A DNA stretch of 64,000 nucleotides from Magnetospirillum gryphiswaldense MSR-1 v2 (GTDB lineage Bacteria > Pseudomonadota > Alphaproteobacteria > Rhodospirillales > Magnetospirillaceae). The stretch is taken from positions 806,001-870,000 of the forward strand of contig NC_023065.1 of NCBI RefSeq assembly GCF_000513295.1. The letters run 5' to 3'. The position numbers and the translations under genes were made by a program. Positions 13,356 through 17,106 of this stretch are shown piece by piece; positions within the stretch are counted from its first letter, which is position 1, and every line of letters starts with the position of its first letter. The notes under the pieces are model-generated. The model was given only the letters and a program-made list of their open reading frames with translations. It was not told where the DNA came from and did no database searches.

Positions 13356-14708
13356 ATGACGCGCAAGCTGTTCGGCACCGATGGCATCCGGGGTACGGCC
13401 AATATCGACCCCATGACCGCCGAGATGGCGTTGAAGCTGGGCATGGCCGCCGGTCGGCATTTCACCCGGGGCGAGCACCGCCATATGGTGGTCATCGGCA
13501 AGGACACCCGTCTGTCCGGTTACCTGCTGGAGCCGGCGCTGACCGCCGGTTTCATCGCGGTGGGCATGGACGTGGTGCTGTTGGGGCCGCTGCCGACCCC
13601 GGCGGTGGCCATGCTGACCCGGTCGTTGCGCGCCGATCTCGGCGTGATGATTTCCGCCTCGCACAATGCCTATCAGGATAACGGCATCAAGCTGTTCGGC
13701 CCCGACGGTTTCAAACTGTCGGACGAGGACGAGATCGAGATCGAACACAAGATGTTCAACGGTCTGGAAGCCTATCGCGTCGGTTCCGACCATCTGGGCA
13801 AGGCCAAGCGCCTGGATGACGCCGTCGGTCGTTATATCGAATACGCCAAAAGCAGCTTTCCCCGTGGTCTGCGTCTGGATGGGCTGAAGATCGTCGTCGA
13901 TTGCGCCAATGGCGCCGCCTACAAGGTCGCCCCCACCGTGTTGTGGGAACTGGGGGCCGAGGTGATCCCGCTGGCAGTGTCGCCCGACGGCTTCAACATC
14001 AACAAGGATTGCGGCTCGCTGCATACCCAGACGTTGCAGACCCAGGTGGTGGCCCATGGCGCCCATCTGGGCATCGCCCTTGATGGCGACGCCGACCGTC
14101 TGGTGCTGTGCGATGAGAAGGGCACGGTCATCGACGGCGATCAGGTCATGGGCCTGATCGGCCTGACCCTGGCCAAGTCCGGCAAATTGACCGGCGGCGG
14201 CATCGTCGCCACCGTCATGTCCAATATGGGGCTGGAAAAGCATCTGGCTGGTCACGGTCTGCACTTGCACCGCACCAATGTGGGCGACCGCTATGTGCTG
14301 GAGCGCATGCGCCGTGACGGCTTCAACGTCGGCGGCGAACAATCGGGCCACATCATCCTGTCCGACCATTCCACCACCGGCGACGGCCTGGTGGCGGCGT
14401 TGCAGGTGCTGGCGGCGCTGGTGGAGGCGGACAAGCCGGCCAGCCAAGTGCTGCACCTGTTCGATCCGTTTCCCCAGGTTTTGAAAAATGTCCGTGTCGC
14501 CGGCAAGCCCGATGCGGTGCTGGCGTTGGACGGTGTCCAGGCGGCCATCGCCGCCGGCGAGGCCCGGCTGAACGGCACCGGTCGGGTGCTGATCCGCAAG
14601 TCGGGCACCGAACCGCTGATCCGGGTGATGGCCGAGGGCGAGGACAAGGCCTTGGTCGACACCGTGGTCGACGACATCGTCGCCACCATCAGCGCGGCGG
14701 CGGGCTAA
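13356..14708 (+). CDS. glmM: Phosphoglucosamine mutase GlmM
   Basis: GlmM interconverts glucosamine-6-phosphate and glucosamine-1-phosphate on the way to UDP-GlcNAc. The 450-residue protein has [13 protein letters not shown] at the N terminus, the phosphoserine loop [17 protein letters not shown] at about residue 100 (active serine in SASHN), the metal-binding DGDADR near residue 243, the sugar-binding GEQSGH near 328, and the phosphate-binding [12 protein letters not shown] near the C terminus. It is convergent with the exonuclease-fusion gene across a 57-bp gap filled by a 40-bp repeat. Confidence 0.98.
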
Positions 14709-14765: not shown

Positions 14766-16799
14766 CTAAAACGCCCGCTGGCGTTCGTGCAGCGCCATGT
14801 TCATATCCAATTCCTTGACCACCTGTTCCAAGGTGGTGATGCCGCGGCTTTCCAGGGCGTCGATCTGATTGAGCAGCACGGCGGCGGTGACGATGGCGTC
14901 ACCCAGGGCGGTGTGGCGGTCGGTGATGGAAATGCCCAGGCGGTCGCAGATGGCGTCAAGGGAATGGCCGGTTTCCGGGCCGTCCAGATAATTGGACAGC
15001 ATCATGGTGTCCAGTACCGGATTGTCGAATTTCAGGCCGAATTGCCGTTCGTTCATGCGCAGGAATTTCAGGTCGAAGGCAGCGTTGTGGGCGACCAGGA
15101 CCGCGTCGGCGGCAAAGGCCTTGAACTGCGGCAGCACCACGCCCAAGGGTGGCTTGTCCTTGACCATGTCGTCGGTGATGCCGTGGAACTTGATGCTTTC
15201 CGGTGGGATGACCCGACCCGGATTGACGATGCGGTTGAAGCTTTCGCCCGACAGGATGCGACCGTTGACGATGCGCACGGCGCCGATCTGCACGATCTGG
15301 TCACCTTGGCTGGGTTGCAGGCCGGTGGTTTCGGTGTCGAAGACGATGAAGGTCAGGCTGCGCAAGGGCTGGCGACCCTTTTCGCCGATGTCGCGGGCAG
15401 CGTCCAACAACGCCATGTCATAGAATTCGGGGCGGGTCGGCAGGGCAGCGACCTTAGCTTGGTAATGCTGTTCGATACCCTTGCGCATGGGCAGGCGCAG
15501 CCATGACCGACCGGCCCGGTGTTCCTGCACGATTTCGGCACCGGCATGATGGTCGAGCACATCGCGCACCCGCATGCCGCCCAGGCTGTGCAGCGGTTGG
15601 GCCAGCCAGCCATCCAGCGCCGGTTTGGCGGCGGTCGAGCCGGCCCAGCCGATTTCCACCCATGATCCGGCTTCGTCCTCGGCAGCGGCCAGATCGACCT
15701 CGGCCAGATTGAAGCGGTCGGAAATCTGACGGATCATGGCTTCCATGGTCAGGGCCAGCGAATGGGAATCGGCGTGCAGCCATACCGGCAAGCCGGTGAC
15801 GGTGACCTTGACCGTTGATTGGTCGAAGCGTTGGGCGACAAAGGCGAATAGATCGGCGGAATGCAGATCGGCCATGGGCCACCAGCCCGACAGGGCGCGC
15901 TGATAGCCGTCGGTGACGCGTTTGATGGCGGCTTCGATGTTTGCCGCCTCGCGCTCGACGATGACCGGGTTGTTGGCGGCGATGCGCAAACGGATCAACG
16001 GTGATTGCAGGCCTTCGGCCACCTCGCGCAGCAAGGCGTCGCGCCGCGACAGCGCCGCCACCTGCGGGCTGGCGTCGACCATGGTGATGACATAGCCGGT
16101 GGCGTCGCCGTCATTGGTGCGGATCAATGACATGCGCGCCTGCAACAGCGTGGTGCCGTCGGCGGCGCTGGCCAGAAACGGCGTGCCGCGGCTGCCCATT
16201 TCCGGGCGGTGGGTGAGCACTTCCAGCATGTGGGTGACCGCCTCGCGCGTCACCGTCTCGAACAGGGATCGGCCCAGGCCGACCGGGCCGATGCCGGCCA
16301 GCATGTCCATGGCCACCGAATTGTACAAAACGATCTGGTGGCGCAGGTTGCACACCACCACGCCTTCGTGCAGGTCGTTCAGGATGGCGGCCAGGCGGTT
16401 GGAGTTTTCCTCGGCCTTGCCGGTGGCGCTTTTCAGACCCTCGGCCAGTTCCTGACGGGCCTGGATCATCTTGGCGATGATCTGGTTGACCGAATCGGGC
16501 AACGGCGCCAGCAGCGGATAACGCGCCGCCTCGATGTCGCTGCGATTGCCGCCATGGGCGATGGCGCGGATTTCGGCGGCCATGCGCTTGATCCCGCGCA
16601 TGACGGCGAAGTCGATGATCTTCCACGCCAGTACGAACATAAGCGCCGACCCGGCCACGGCGATCATGGCCAGGGCACGCAGCTCCTCGCGGTCAACGAC
16701 GCCTTGCCCCAGCAGATACGCCGCGGCGCCGATGGCGGCGACATTGGCGGCAAAGGCCATGGCCAGCCAGGGAAGGGGACCCCGCCAGTTTTGCGGCAC
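14766..16799 (-). CDS. Membrane PAS/degenerate kinase sensor fused to a DEDDh 3'-5' exonuclease
   Basis: A 677-residue fusion. Two membrane helices (about 9-28 and 37-57) precede a HAMP-like linker and a PAS domain (AILNDLHEGVVVCNLRHQIV, about 135-245). A histidine-kinase-like region follows (REVAEGLQSPLIRLRIAAN), but the dimerisation helix lacks the phospho-histidine and no good ATP-binding N-box is visible. From residue 482 it is a DnaQ-type exonuclease with an intact DEDDh set: DTET (D488, E490), AHNAAFD (D576) and HTALGD (H629, D634). I chose the GTG eight bases after AAGGAG; a longer frame would overlap the small upstream gene. Its substrate is unknown. Confidence 0.85.
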   Translation of the reverse strand: MPQNWRGPLPWLAMAFAANVAAIGAAAYLLGQGVVDREELRALAMIAVAGSALMFVLAWKIIDFAVMRGIKRMAAEIRAIAHGGNRSDIEAARYPLLAPLPDSVNQIIAKMIQARQELAEGLKSATGKAEENSNRLAAILNDLHEGVVVCNLRHQIVLYNSVAMDMLAGIGPVGLGRSLFETVTREAVTHMLEVLTHRPEMGSRGTPFLASAADGTTLLQARMSLIRTNDGDATGYVITMVDASPQVAALSRRDALLREVAEGLQSPLIRLRIAANNPVIVEREAANIEAAIKRVTDGYQRALSGWWPMADLHSADLFAFVAQRFDQSTVKVTVTGLPVWLHADSHSLALTMEAMIRQISDRFNLAEVDLAAAEDEAGSWVEIGWAGSTAAKPALDGWLAQPLHSLGGMRVRDVLDHHAGAEIVQEHRAGRSWLRLPMRKGIEQHYQAKVAALPTRPEFYDMALLDAARDIGEKGRQPLRSLTFIVFDTETTGLQPSQGDQIVQIGAVRIVNGRILSGESFNRIVNPGRVIPPESIKFHGITDDMVKDKPPLGVVLPQFKAFAADAVLVAHNAAFDLKFLRMNERQFGLKFDNPVLDTMMLSNYLDGPETGHSLDAICDRLGISITDRHTALGDAIVTAAVLLNQIDALESRGITTLEQVVKELDMNMALHERQRAF

Positions 16800-16902: not shown

Positions 16903-17106
16903 TCAGGCCGCCTTATGCTCCTGTTCCAGTGACGCCCGCACCTGATCATAGACCGATGCCGCCGACACCCCACGGTAATAGCCGTCACGCAGCAGGCCAT
17001 GGTCAATGCCCAAGGTCTTGGCCGACAGGCCGAAACGCTCCATCAGCCGGGTGTCCACATCAGAAATCCACAAGGTGTAGCCGGTGTCGAACAAGGGGTA
17101 GCTCAT
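16903..17106 (-). CDS. Small conserved-looking protein of unknown function
   Basis: A 67-residue soluble protein starting MSYPLFDTGYTLWISDVDTR, with no signal peptide or membrane helix. It is acidic near the start and ends in a helical segment (YDQVRASLEQEHKAA). I do not recognise the family. It lies 103 bases upstream of the sensor-exonuclease gene on the same strand and could share its transcript. Codon use matches its neighbours, which supports it being real. The ribosome site is weak. Confidence 0.55.
   Translation of the reverse strand: MSYPLFDTGYTLWISDVDTRLMERFGLSAKTLGIDHGLLRDGYYRGVSAASVYDQVRASLEQEHKAA

Follow-up and report, generated by a model that had tools for sequence, protein, structure and literature searches.

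The gene treated here occupies positions 14766-16799 on the minus strand of a 64,000-nucleotide stretch of the Magnetospirillum gryphiswaldense MSR-1 v2 genome (contig NC_023065.1, positions 806,001 to 870,000; hereafter, the window), and it joins two membrane helices, a PAS domain and a histidine-kinase-like region to a DEDDh exonuclease. Its closest described counterparts come from Pseudomonas and Caulobacter, and what we say of them refers to the accessible parts of the cited papers. In P. putida, pp_0353, which encodes a putative RNase_T exonuclease, is in an operon with the CBS-domain gene pp_0354, and ErdR binds the pp_0354 promoter; a pp_0353 deletion mutant is delayed on pyruvate, but not on acetate, and the authors suggest a role in mRNA degradation (PMC9927547). 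PP_0354 is upregulated on acetate (PMC8402216), and P. fluorescens PFLU5625, which has CBS and nucleotidyltransferase domains, lies within the CrbS/R regulon (PMC5715377). By analogy, PP_0354 would be the counterpart of PFLU5625 and a DUF294 protein. The P. putida pair resembles the present system in that an RNase_T exonuclease shares an operon with a CBS-domain gene under an SLC5/STAC kinase system (MxtR/ErdR, which corresponds to CrbS/R) and is linked to pyruvate. However, the accessible text mentions no sensor or pseudokinase part in PP_0353 and describes transcriptional control through ErdR, whereas in the relatives of the window gene the nuclease is accompanied by a bare receiver.

The SLC5/STAC systems use LuxR-family regulators, and one of them, RpuS/R, acts on a pyruvate symporter (PMC9100948). 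An SLC5-kinase of a kind homologous to those of CrbS/R and RpuS/R adjoins the relatives of the window gene, but the response regulators described for these two systems are of the LuxR family and the one next to the nuclease is a bare receiver. A second point of comparison is DivL of Caulobacter, a kinase without the histidine, which binds phosphorylated DivK through the usual docking face and is without kinase and phosphatase activity (PMC4211667). The likeness lies in a PAS-bearing, histidine-less kinase that reads a single-domain receiver, which in our family is a predicted interaction; as described, DivL differs in that a tyrosine replaces the histidine and that it acts on CckA. Presumably, DivL also lacks an enzyme domain of the type found in the window protein. 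To our knowledge, pseudo-histidine kinases with an enzyme as their output have rarely been described, and no description of a nuclease fused to one turned up in our literature search, in which most full texts were unchecked and subscription papers lay largely outside.

The genomic context of the family is the new part of this analysis. Our preferred reading, for which the odds seem even, is that the window gene codes for a 3'-5' exonuclease anchored in the membrane and gated by a signal, with a link to monocarboxylate sensing; the gating, substrate and output are predictions. The genes for uptake and sensing of acetate and pyruvate-type acids beside its relatives hint at an undescribed form of metabolic control by a tethered nuclease. 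If this is true, RNA or a nucleotidyl mark would be the direct target of a metabolic signal at the membrane, and transcription would be bypassed.

The Window Gene and Its Exonuclease Domain

On translation, the reading frame at 14766-16799 (minus strand) has no internal stop and yields 677 amino acids from a GTG start. The architecture given in a preliminary description, made from the sequence of the window, is confirmed, and its parts are listed here with the evidence for each.

14766..16799, minus strand: whole gene, 677 amino acids, GTG start; two membrane helices, PAS, pseudo-histidine kinase and DEDDh exonuclease (translation of the open reading frame, Pfam, hydropathy)
16707..16778, minus strand: membrane helix 1, residues 8-31 (hydropathy and model)
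16605..16688, minus strand: membrane helix 2, residues about 38-65 (hydropathy and model)
16074..16397, minus strand: PAS domain, residues 135-242 (Pfam below cut-off; 20/20 members; model)
15882..16043, minus strand: DHp-like helical hairpin, residues 253-306, with Glu262 replacing the phospho-histidine (model, profile comparison, alignment)
15480..15872, minus strand: degenerate CA-like domain, residues 310-440 (model, profile and structure comparison; weak by profile when the CA part is taken alone)
15408..15443, minus strand: conserved linker LPTRPEFYDMAL, residues 453-464 (alignment of 20 sequences)
14847..15350, minus strand: PolC/epsilon-like DEDDh 3'-5' exonuclease domain, residues 484-651, with D488, E490, D576, H629 and D634 (Pfam, structure match, alignment)

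The two membrane helices of the preliminary description are borne out, since hydropathy places membrane segments at residues ~8-31 and ~38-70 and the AlphaFold model has N-terminal helices at residues 8-31 and 37-81. The PAS domain that it named is less clear in the window protein alone (E 8.4e-4, 19.8 bits against a Pfam gathering cut-off of 22.6), but Pfam matched the domain at E<=0.1 in 20/20 aligned relatives. In the linker, residues R456, P457, E458, F459, Y460, D461 and L464 are invariant in 20/20 sequences.

The exonuclease domain matches RNase_T (PF00929) at E 3.4e-39. All five catalytic residues of the DEDDh type (D-E-D-H-D) are present within the fold, exactly where they had been placed. 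In an alignment of 62 sequences, which takes in near-copies and a paralogue from the same genome (locus L011; the L and G numbers are our handles for loci and genomes), D488, E490, D576 and D634 are kept in 62/62 and H629 in 61/62. The nearest solved structures are those of PolC and epsilon (2p1j, 1j53, 2gui), and the epsilon structures match the model at TMt 0.78-0.80.

These likenesses could suggest a nuclease of DNA proofreading, of repair or of anti-phage defense. The window protein has the DEDDh fold and residues in common with PolC and epsilon (DnaQ), and it passes TIGR00573 with 118.9 bits against a cut-off of 71.5, this model being one for the broad epsilon subunit family of the subfamily-domain and not of the equivalog type. 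However, no equivalog model of NCBIfam reached its cut-off among the best 25 of 41 matches; for example, dnaQ_proteo gave 129 bits against 222.7 and PolC (NF001688) gave 160.5 bits against 873. Unlike PolC and epsilon, the window protein is membrane-anchored, fused to a sensor and without a polymerase part, and the genes that neighbor its relatives are for transport and signaling. A function in proofreading, repair or phage defense is highly improbable in our judgment.

The Kinase-Like Region

Sequence comparison indicates that the kinase-like region is a true histidine-kinase homologue and is, by the residues that it has lost, catalytically dead. Pfam matched neither HisKA nor HATPase in the window protein; among 20 members of the family, HisKA matched five (best 3.1e-4) and HATPase matched 0/20. 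The relationship appears when profiles are compared. Residues 240-445 (20 sequences) were set against the kinase part of 22 SLC5-type proteins from the neighborhoods of the relatives, and this one-against-one comparison, in which E carries no database correction, gave 97.9% and E 3.7e-13 over 203 columns. The DHp part alone gave 97.7%. The best structural matches of the model include WalK, VicK, LOV-kinases and ThkA (E 5.7e-17 to 2.1e-9), with low template-modeling scores and large root-mean-square deviations across the whole chain. Together, the profile and structure matches point to a DHp-CA ancestry and fold shared with histidine kinases, the CA part being weak when it is taken alone.

The motif AEGLQSPL, which the preliminary description had singled out as lacking the phospho-histidine, begins at residue 261, and Glu262 occupies the position of that histidine. 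At this position, 52 of the 62 aligned sequences have Glu, five have Arg, two have Ser and single ones have Thr, Asp or Val; none has His (0/62). A profile alignment had been proposed as the check on a phospho-histidine and an N-box, and it found neither: the Asn pair of the N-box aligns to Ala354/Gln358 and the Asp of the G1-box to Trp385, a tryptophan that is kept in 61/62 sequences. The earlier view of a dead kinase joined to a nuclease that keeps its residues thus extends to all of the aligned sequences. Since the phospho-histidine is absent from all 62, autophosphorylation at the usual site is impossible and the loss of this residue is old.

The ratios of nonsynonymous to synonymous substitutions (dN/dS) against six relatives are 0.16-0.46 for the pseudokinase and 0.08-0.26 for the exonuclease, and therefore both parts are under purifying selection. 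Three other explanations were discarded. A recent decay of a kinase is ruled out by the missing histidine in all 62 sequences together with dN/dS <0.5; a working kinase with the usual ATP site is ruled out, as the N-box and G1 residues are gone as well; and a chance open reading frame is ruled out by conservation across genomes.

Distribution and Architectures of the Family

The search for the same architecture that had been suggested earlier found the long form (a match from residue <=82 to >=662) in 39/120 genomes of the order and in at least 9/289 genomes of the class. Another 16 genomes of the order match only from residue ~433-451 onward, with 48-57% identity there. Named relatives are found in Magnetospirillum, Terasakiella, Methylocystaceae and Competibacteraceae bins, and plasmids of Paracoccus and Marivivens, the plasmid genes being annotated as "exonuclease domain-containing protein", "3'-5' exonuclease", "DNA polymerase III subunit epsilon" or "hypothetical protein". 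By its context, the window gene belongs to a mainly alphaproteobacterial family of membrane-anchored DEDDh exonucleases, whose other members adjoin genes for SSS-family transporters, CBS-DUF294 nucleotidyltransferases, SLC5-type histidine kinases and single-domain receivers. The source genome itself has five RNase_T matches, and three of them are membrane-anchored members of this family, that is, the window gene, a paralogue of 619 amino acids (L011) and a paralogue of 451 amino acids (L012).

The family is graded in its architecture. The simplest relatives consist of membrane helices and an exonuclease (open frames of 298-347 amino acids, for example L148 and L152-L156), the intermediate ones have membrane helices, PAS and exonuclease (for example L146 and the 451-amino-acid paralogue at L012), and the fullest ones have the pseudokinase between PAS and exonuclease. 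The existence of the simplest form would fit a plain RNA-turnover nuclease that trims carbon-metabolic mRNAs close to the membrane, with the sensor half as no more than an anchor and a means of dimerization, and mRNA degradation is also what the accessible text on PP_0353 proposes (PMC9927547). Against this, the PAS domain and the pseudokinase are conserved under purifying selection, and a mere anchor would hardly need them. We consider plain RNA turnover rather unlikely.

Two single loci may be mentioned here. A contig titled Stygiobacter (L073) carries a gene that is 97% identical to the window gene and is probably a misbinned Magnetospirillum contig. At L086, a window-type gene is split over two frames, with a C-terminal open frame of 276 amino acids.

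Genes Next to the Relatives

Neighboring genes were counted with tblastn and hidden Markov models at loci picked by similarity to the window protein, which are not a random sample; several stretches stop at contig ends and the counts are lower bounds. The near-identical loci L117 and L093 and the broken gene at L086 were dropped. At pseudokinase loci outside the Magnetospirillum clade, a receiver is directly upstream in 30/39 (the matches at L129 and L144 are weak), an SLC5-type histidine kinase is nearby in 20/39 and DUF294 is present in 17/39. The relatives without a pseudokinase have a receiver in 0/15, an SLC5 kinase in 0/15 and DUF294 in 15/15. Between these 39 and 15 loci, the association of pseudokinase and receiver gives a Fisher p=1.5e-7.

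Among receivers sampled at >45% identity to that of L011, a set with near-copies, 31/31 retain the phospho-aspartate, and the sampled SLC5 kinases, also with near-copies, keep the H-box histidine and both N-box asparagines in 22/22. In Pfam, the membrane part of the SLC5-type kinase drew no SSF match at E<=0.01, but a profile comparison related it to SSS transporters at 98.7% (E 1.8e-16, 475 columns).

Some gene orders illustrate the arrangement. At L011, the order is receiver (123 amino acids), the 619-amino-acid exonuclease, a small membrane protein (78 amino acids) and an SLC5-type histidine kinase (906 amino acids). At L012, the 451-amino-acid exonuclease is beside a CBS-DUF294 gene (Pfam), and a few genes further lies one for a symporter of the VC_2705 family (TIGR03648, E 2.6e-233). 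The annotated order on the Marivivens plasmid is acs, DUF4212, symporter, DUF294, hypothetical, response regulator and exonuclease, and in Paracoccus it is nucleotidyltransferase-substrate-binding protein, hypothetical, "ATP-binding protein", response regulator and exonuclease.

The Pairing with DUF294

A PF10335 search of 289 genomes of the class gave 62 loci at E<1e-20, and the surrounding stretches were examined for all of them. Of these 62 loci, 54 have an exonuclease domain; it is no more than 1.5 kb away at 49 and shares the reading frame at 10 (L167, L168, L169, L170, L171, L175, L176, L214, L224 and L225); Pfam confirmed five of the ten fusions as RNase_T, CBS, DUF294 and DUF294_C, in this order. 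The expectation by chance is ~1.6% per 14-kb stretch, calculated from 5 RNase_T loci in 4.37 Mb of the source genome only. An SSS-family protein is present at 39/62 loci, a count that may include the SLC5 part of a kinase. Most of the exonucleases linked to DUF294 are shorter relatives, and the housekeeping epsilon may be among the short ones. It is very probable that DUF294 and the DEDDh exonuclease act in one process, a statement that concerns the family in general rather than the window copy specifically. The pairing, with its ten single frames, gives a concrete handle on DUF294, which is named a putative nucleotidyltransferase in Pfam.

One process that would account for the pairing is the writing and erasing of a nucleotide mark, in which DUF294 adds nucleotides to an RNA 3' end or to a protein, the DEDDh exonuclease removes them, and the membrane forms with a pseudokinase would serve as erasers under regulation. 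The bond of a nucleotide to Ser, Thr or Tyr is a phosphodiester, as is that of a 3'-terminal nucleotide. The DUF294 sequences legibly contain the nucleotidyltransferase motif G-S/G-x-G-R followed by D-x-D (direct reading), and DUF294_C is grouped, in the accessible text, with the C-terminal domains of nucleotidyltransferases (PMC3710099). The 54/62 loci and the ten fusions also favor such a pair. However, the pyruvate phenotype was reported for the pp_0353 mutant and not for the pp_0354 mutant, a result not expected from a simple pair, and DUF294 was not found within ~7 kb of the window gene. As an explanation of the window gene, writing and erasing is improbable.

The DUF294 loci include several unusual arrangements. 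At L151 and L185 (G156), the exonuclease domain is in frame with a transporter-like open reading frame of about 10 helices (502 amino acids), which we take from the appearance of its sequence to be EamA-like, beside DUF294. In two genomes of 1.2-1.3 Mb (L211 and L212; G251 and G083), the DUF294 gene is within 60 bases of a short exonuclease domain, which may be the housekeeping epsilon. At L173 and L187, the exonuclease gene is flanked on both sides by DUF294 genes; at L131 (G379, of the same genus as the source), two family members of 462 and 703 amino acids flank a single CBS-DUF294 gene.

The Window Copy and Its Clade

The window gene is an orphan copy. In the tree, 14 rows make up its clade (support 99), and the loci of the Magnetospirillum clade have an adjacent receiver in 0/15, an SLC5 kinase in 0/15 and DUF294 within ~7 kb in 4/15. 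The hairpin tip of the DHp also differs: all 21 window-type sequences have a 15-residue gap there, where the other 41 of the 62 have 12-15 residues. The gap sits after His+15, and the receiver interface of HK853 runs, according to the title of 4jas, from His+8 to His+37. The deletion thus lies within or beside the docking face, which alone is no proof that docking was lost. It is plausible that the receiver input was lost in the window lineage in a single evolutionary event.

The preliminary description proposed that ligand binding at the membrane may control the nuclease directly, without phosphotransfer. As a general rule for the family this is not supported, given that 30/39 pseudokinase loci outside the Magnetospirillum clade have a receiver and 20/39 an SLC5 kinase; for the window clade it is the simpler model, because there are 0/15 adjacent receivers and the hairpin is 15 residues shorter. 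In this form, a ligand or redox signal at the PAS or membrane part would gate the nuclease with no phosphorelay, and the dead kinase would be no more than a dimeric connector. Besides the missing receivers and the deletion, which occurs in 0 of the other 41 sequences, such direct gating is favored by the four of eight genomes that have the gene and show no SLC5 kinase at E<=1e-60, and by the shorter relatives that have membrane helices, PAS and exonuclease without the kinase part. On the other side, the window clade groups, with weak support at an open fork, with L120, L137 and L138; these three have both a receiver and an SLC5 kinase, and thus a receiver may already have provided the input in the ancestor. 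Moreover, the receiver of the L011 locus in the same genome may act on the window protein. We hold direct gating to be a tentative alternative, somewhat unlikely as it stands.

The Proposed Mechanism and the Points against It

In the signal-gated exonuclease that we propose, the PAS domain and the pseudokinase would form a dimeric relay that alters the position of the nuclease or its access to the substrate. In the operon-borne relatives, the SLC5 kinase may phosphorylate the adjacent receiver, which would then dock on the dead DHp as phosphorylated DivK does on DivL; for the receiver-bearing relatives, we infer that this docking is the likelier input. Since the window clade has no receiver next to the gene and has lost the tip of the hairpin, the drive would there more likely come from the PAS and membrane part of the protein itself. 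As its output, the nuclease may trim RNA or a nucleotidyl mark and thereby adjust the uptake or use of acetate and pyruvate-type acids. A complete chain can also be drawn, in which the SLC5 kinase signals through the bare receiver to the dead kinase-nuclease, the latter erases a nucleotide mark made by CBS-DUF294 to set monocarboxylate uptake, and the window copy has lost the receiver input and become a self-contained sensor-nuclease. This chain in its entirety is decidedly improbable.

Several observations weigh against the proposed mechanism. Within ~7 kb of the window gene there is no receiver, SLC5 kinase, DUF294 or symporter; the DUF294 genes and the single SLC5 kinase match of the source genome are outside the window, and an SLC5 kinase at E<=1e-60 is absent in 4/8 Magnetospirillaceae genomes with a window-type gene. 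The pseudokinase exonuclease is present at just five of the 54 loci that have DUF294 and an exonuclease (L180, L183, L186 and L187, the last twice). The CA part alone matches the SLC5-type kinase profile at 4.9% and E 0.008, which is not significant, and the AlphaFold model is moderate, with a mean predicted local distance difference test (pLDDT) value of 72.8 and about 80-92 for residues 311-440. Nine of the 39 pseudokinase loci had no receiver in the scan, including four related second copies (L124, L125, L127 and L134); one of the nine, L160, carries an annotated response regulator.

The tree reduces the association of pseudokinase and receiver to 1 independent pair on well-supported branches and 7 on the best tree. 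The link is suggestive, and we do not call it statistically established because there is only 1 independent pair on well-supported branches. This tree leaves out L117, L075 and L130, and the receivers at L119 and L120 were entered from a separate scan. It is without a clean outgroup, as 8/14 rows meant as outside exonucleases fell within the family side; several of the genomes of these misplaced rows have DUF294 beside the exonuclease.

The published comparisons also have their limits. The pp_0354 deletion mutant has no phenotype (PMC9927547). The accessible texts name PP_0354 merely a CBS-domain protein, and PP_0353 is likened to the window protein by its description and not by its sequence. 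To the extent of this likeness, the earlier statement that fusions of a related kind have no described function needs a qualifier, since PP_0353 has a published growth phenotype on pyruvate. No biochemistry for any pseudokinase form turned up in our literature search.

Genes beside the Window Gene

The window gene adjoins, end to end, a gene on the plus strand (13356-14708) that we take from the appearance of its protein to be glmM. A scan for promoters and terminators gave nothing usable above shuffled sequences. On the other side is a small gene:

16903..17106, minus strand: conserved small gene of 67 amino acids upstream of the exonuclease, with a three-helix prediction (linkage, conservation, model)

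Its protein has no Pfam match and no fold match at E<=0.001. The model consists of three helices with a pLDDT of 87. Three pairs of sequences show low dN against high dS, and 18 columns are invariant among 10 aligned. The gene is present at 13/15 window-type loci, and this linkage alone suggests that it is part of the exonuclease system.

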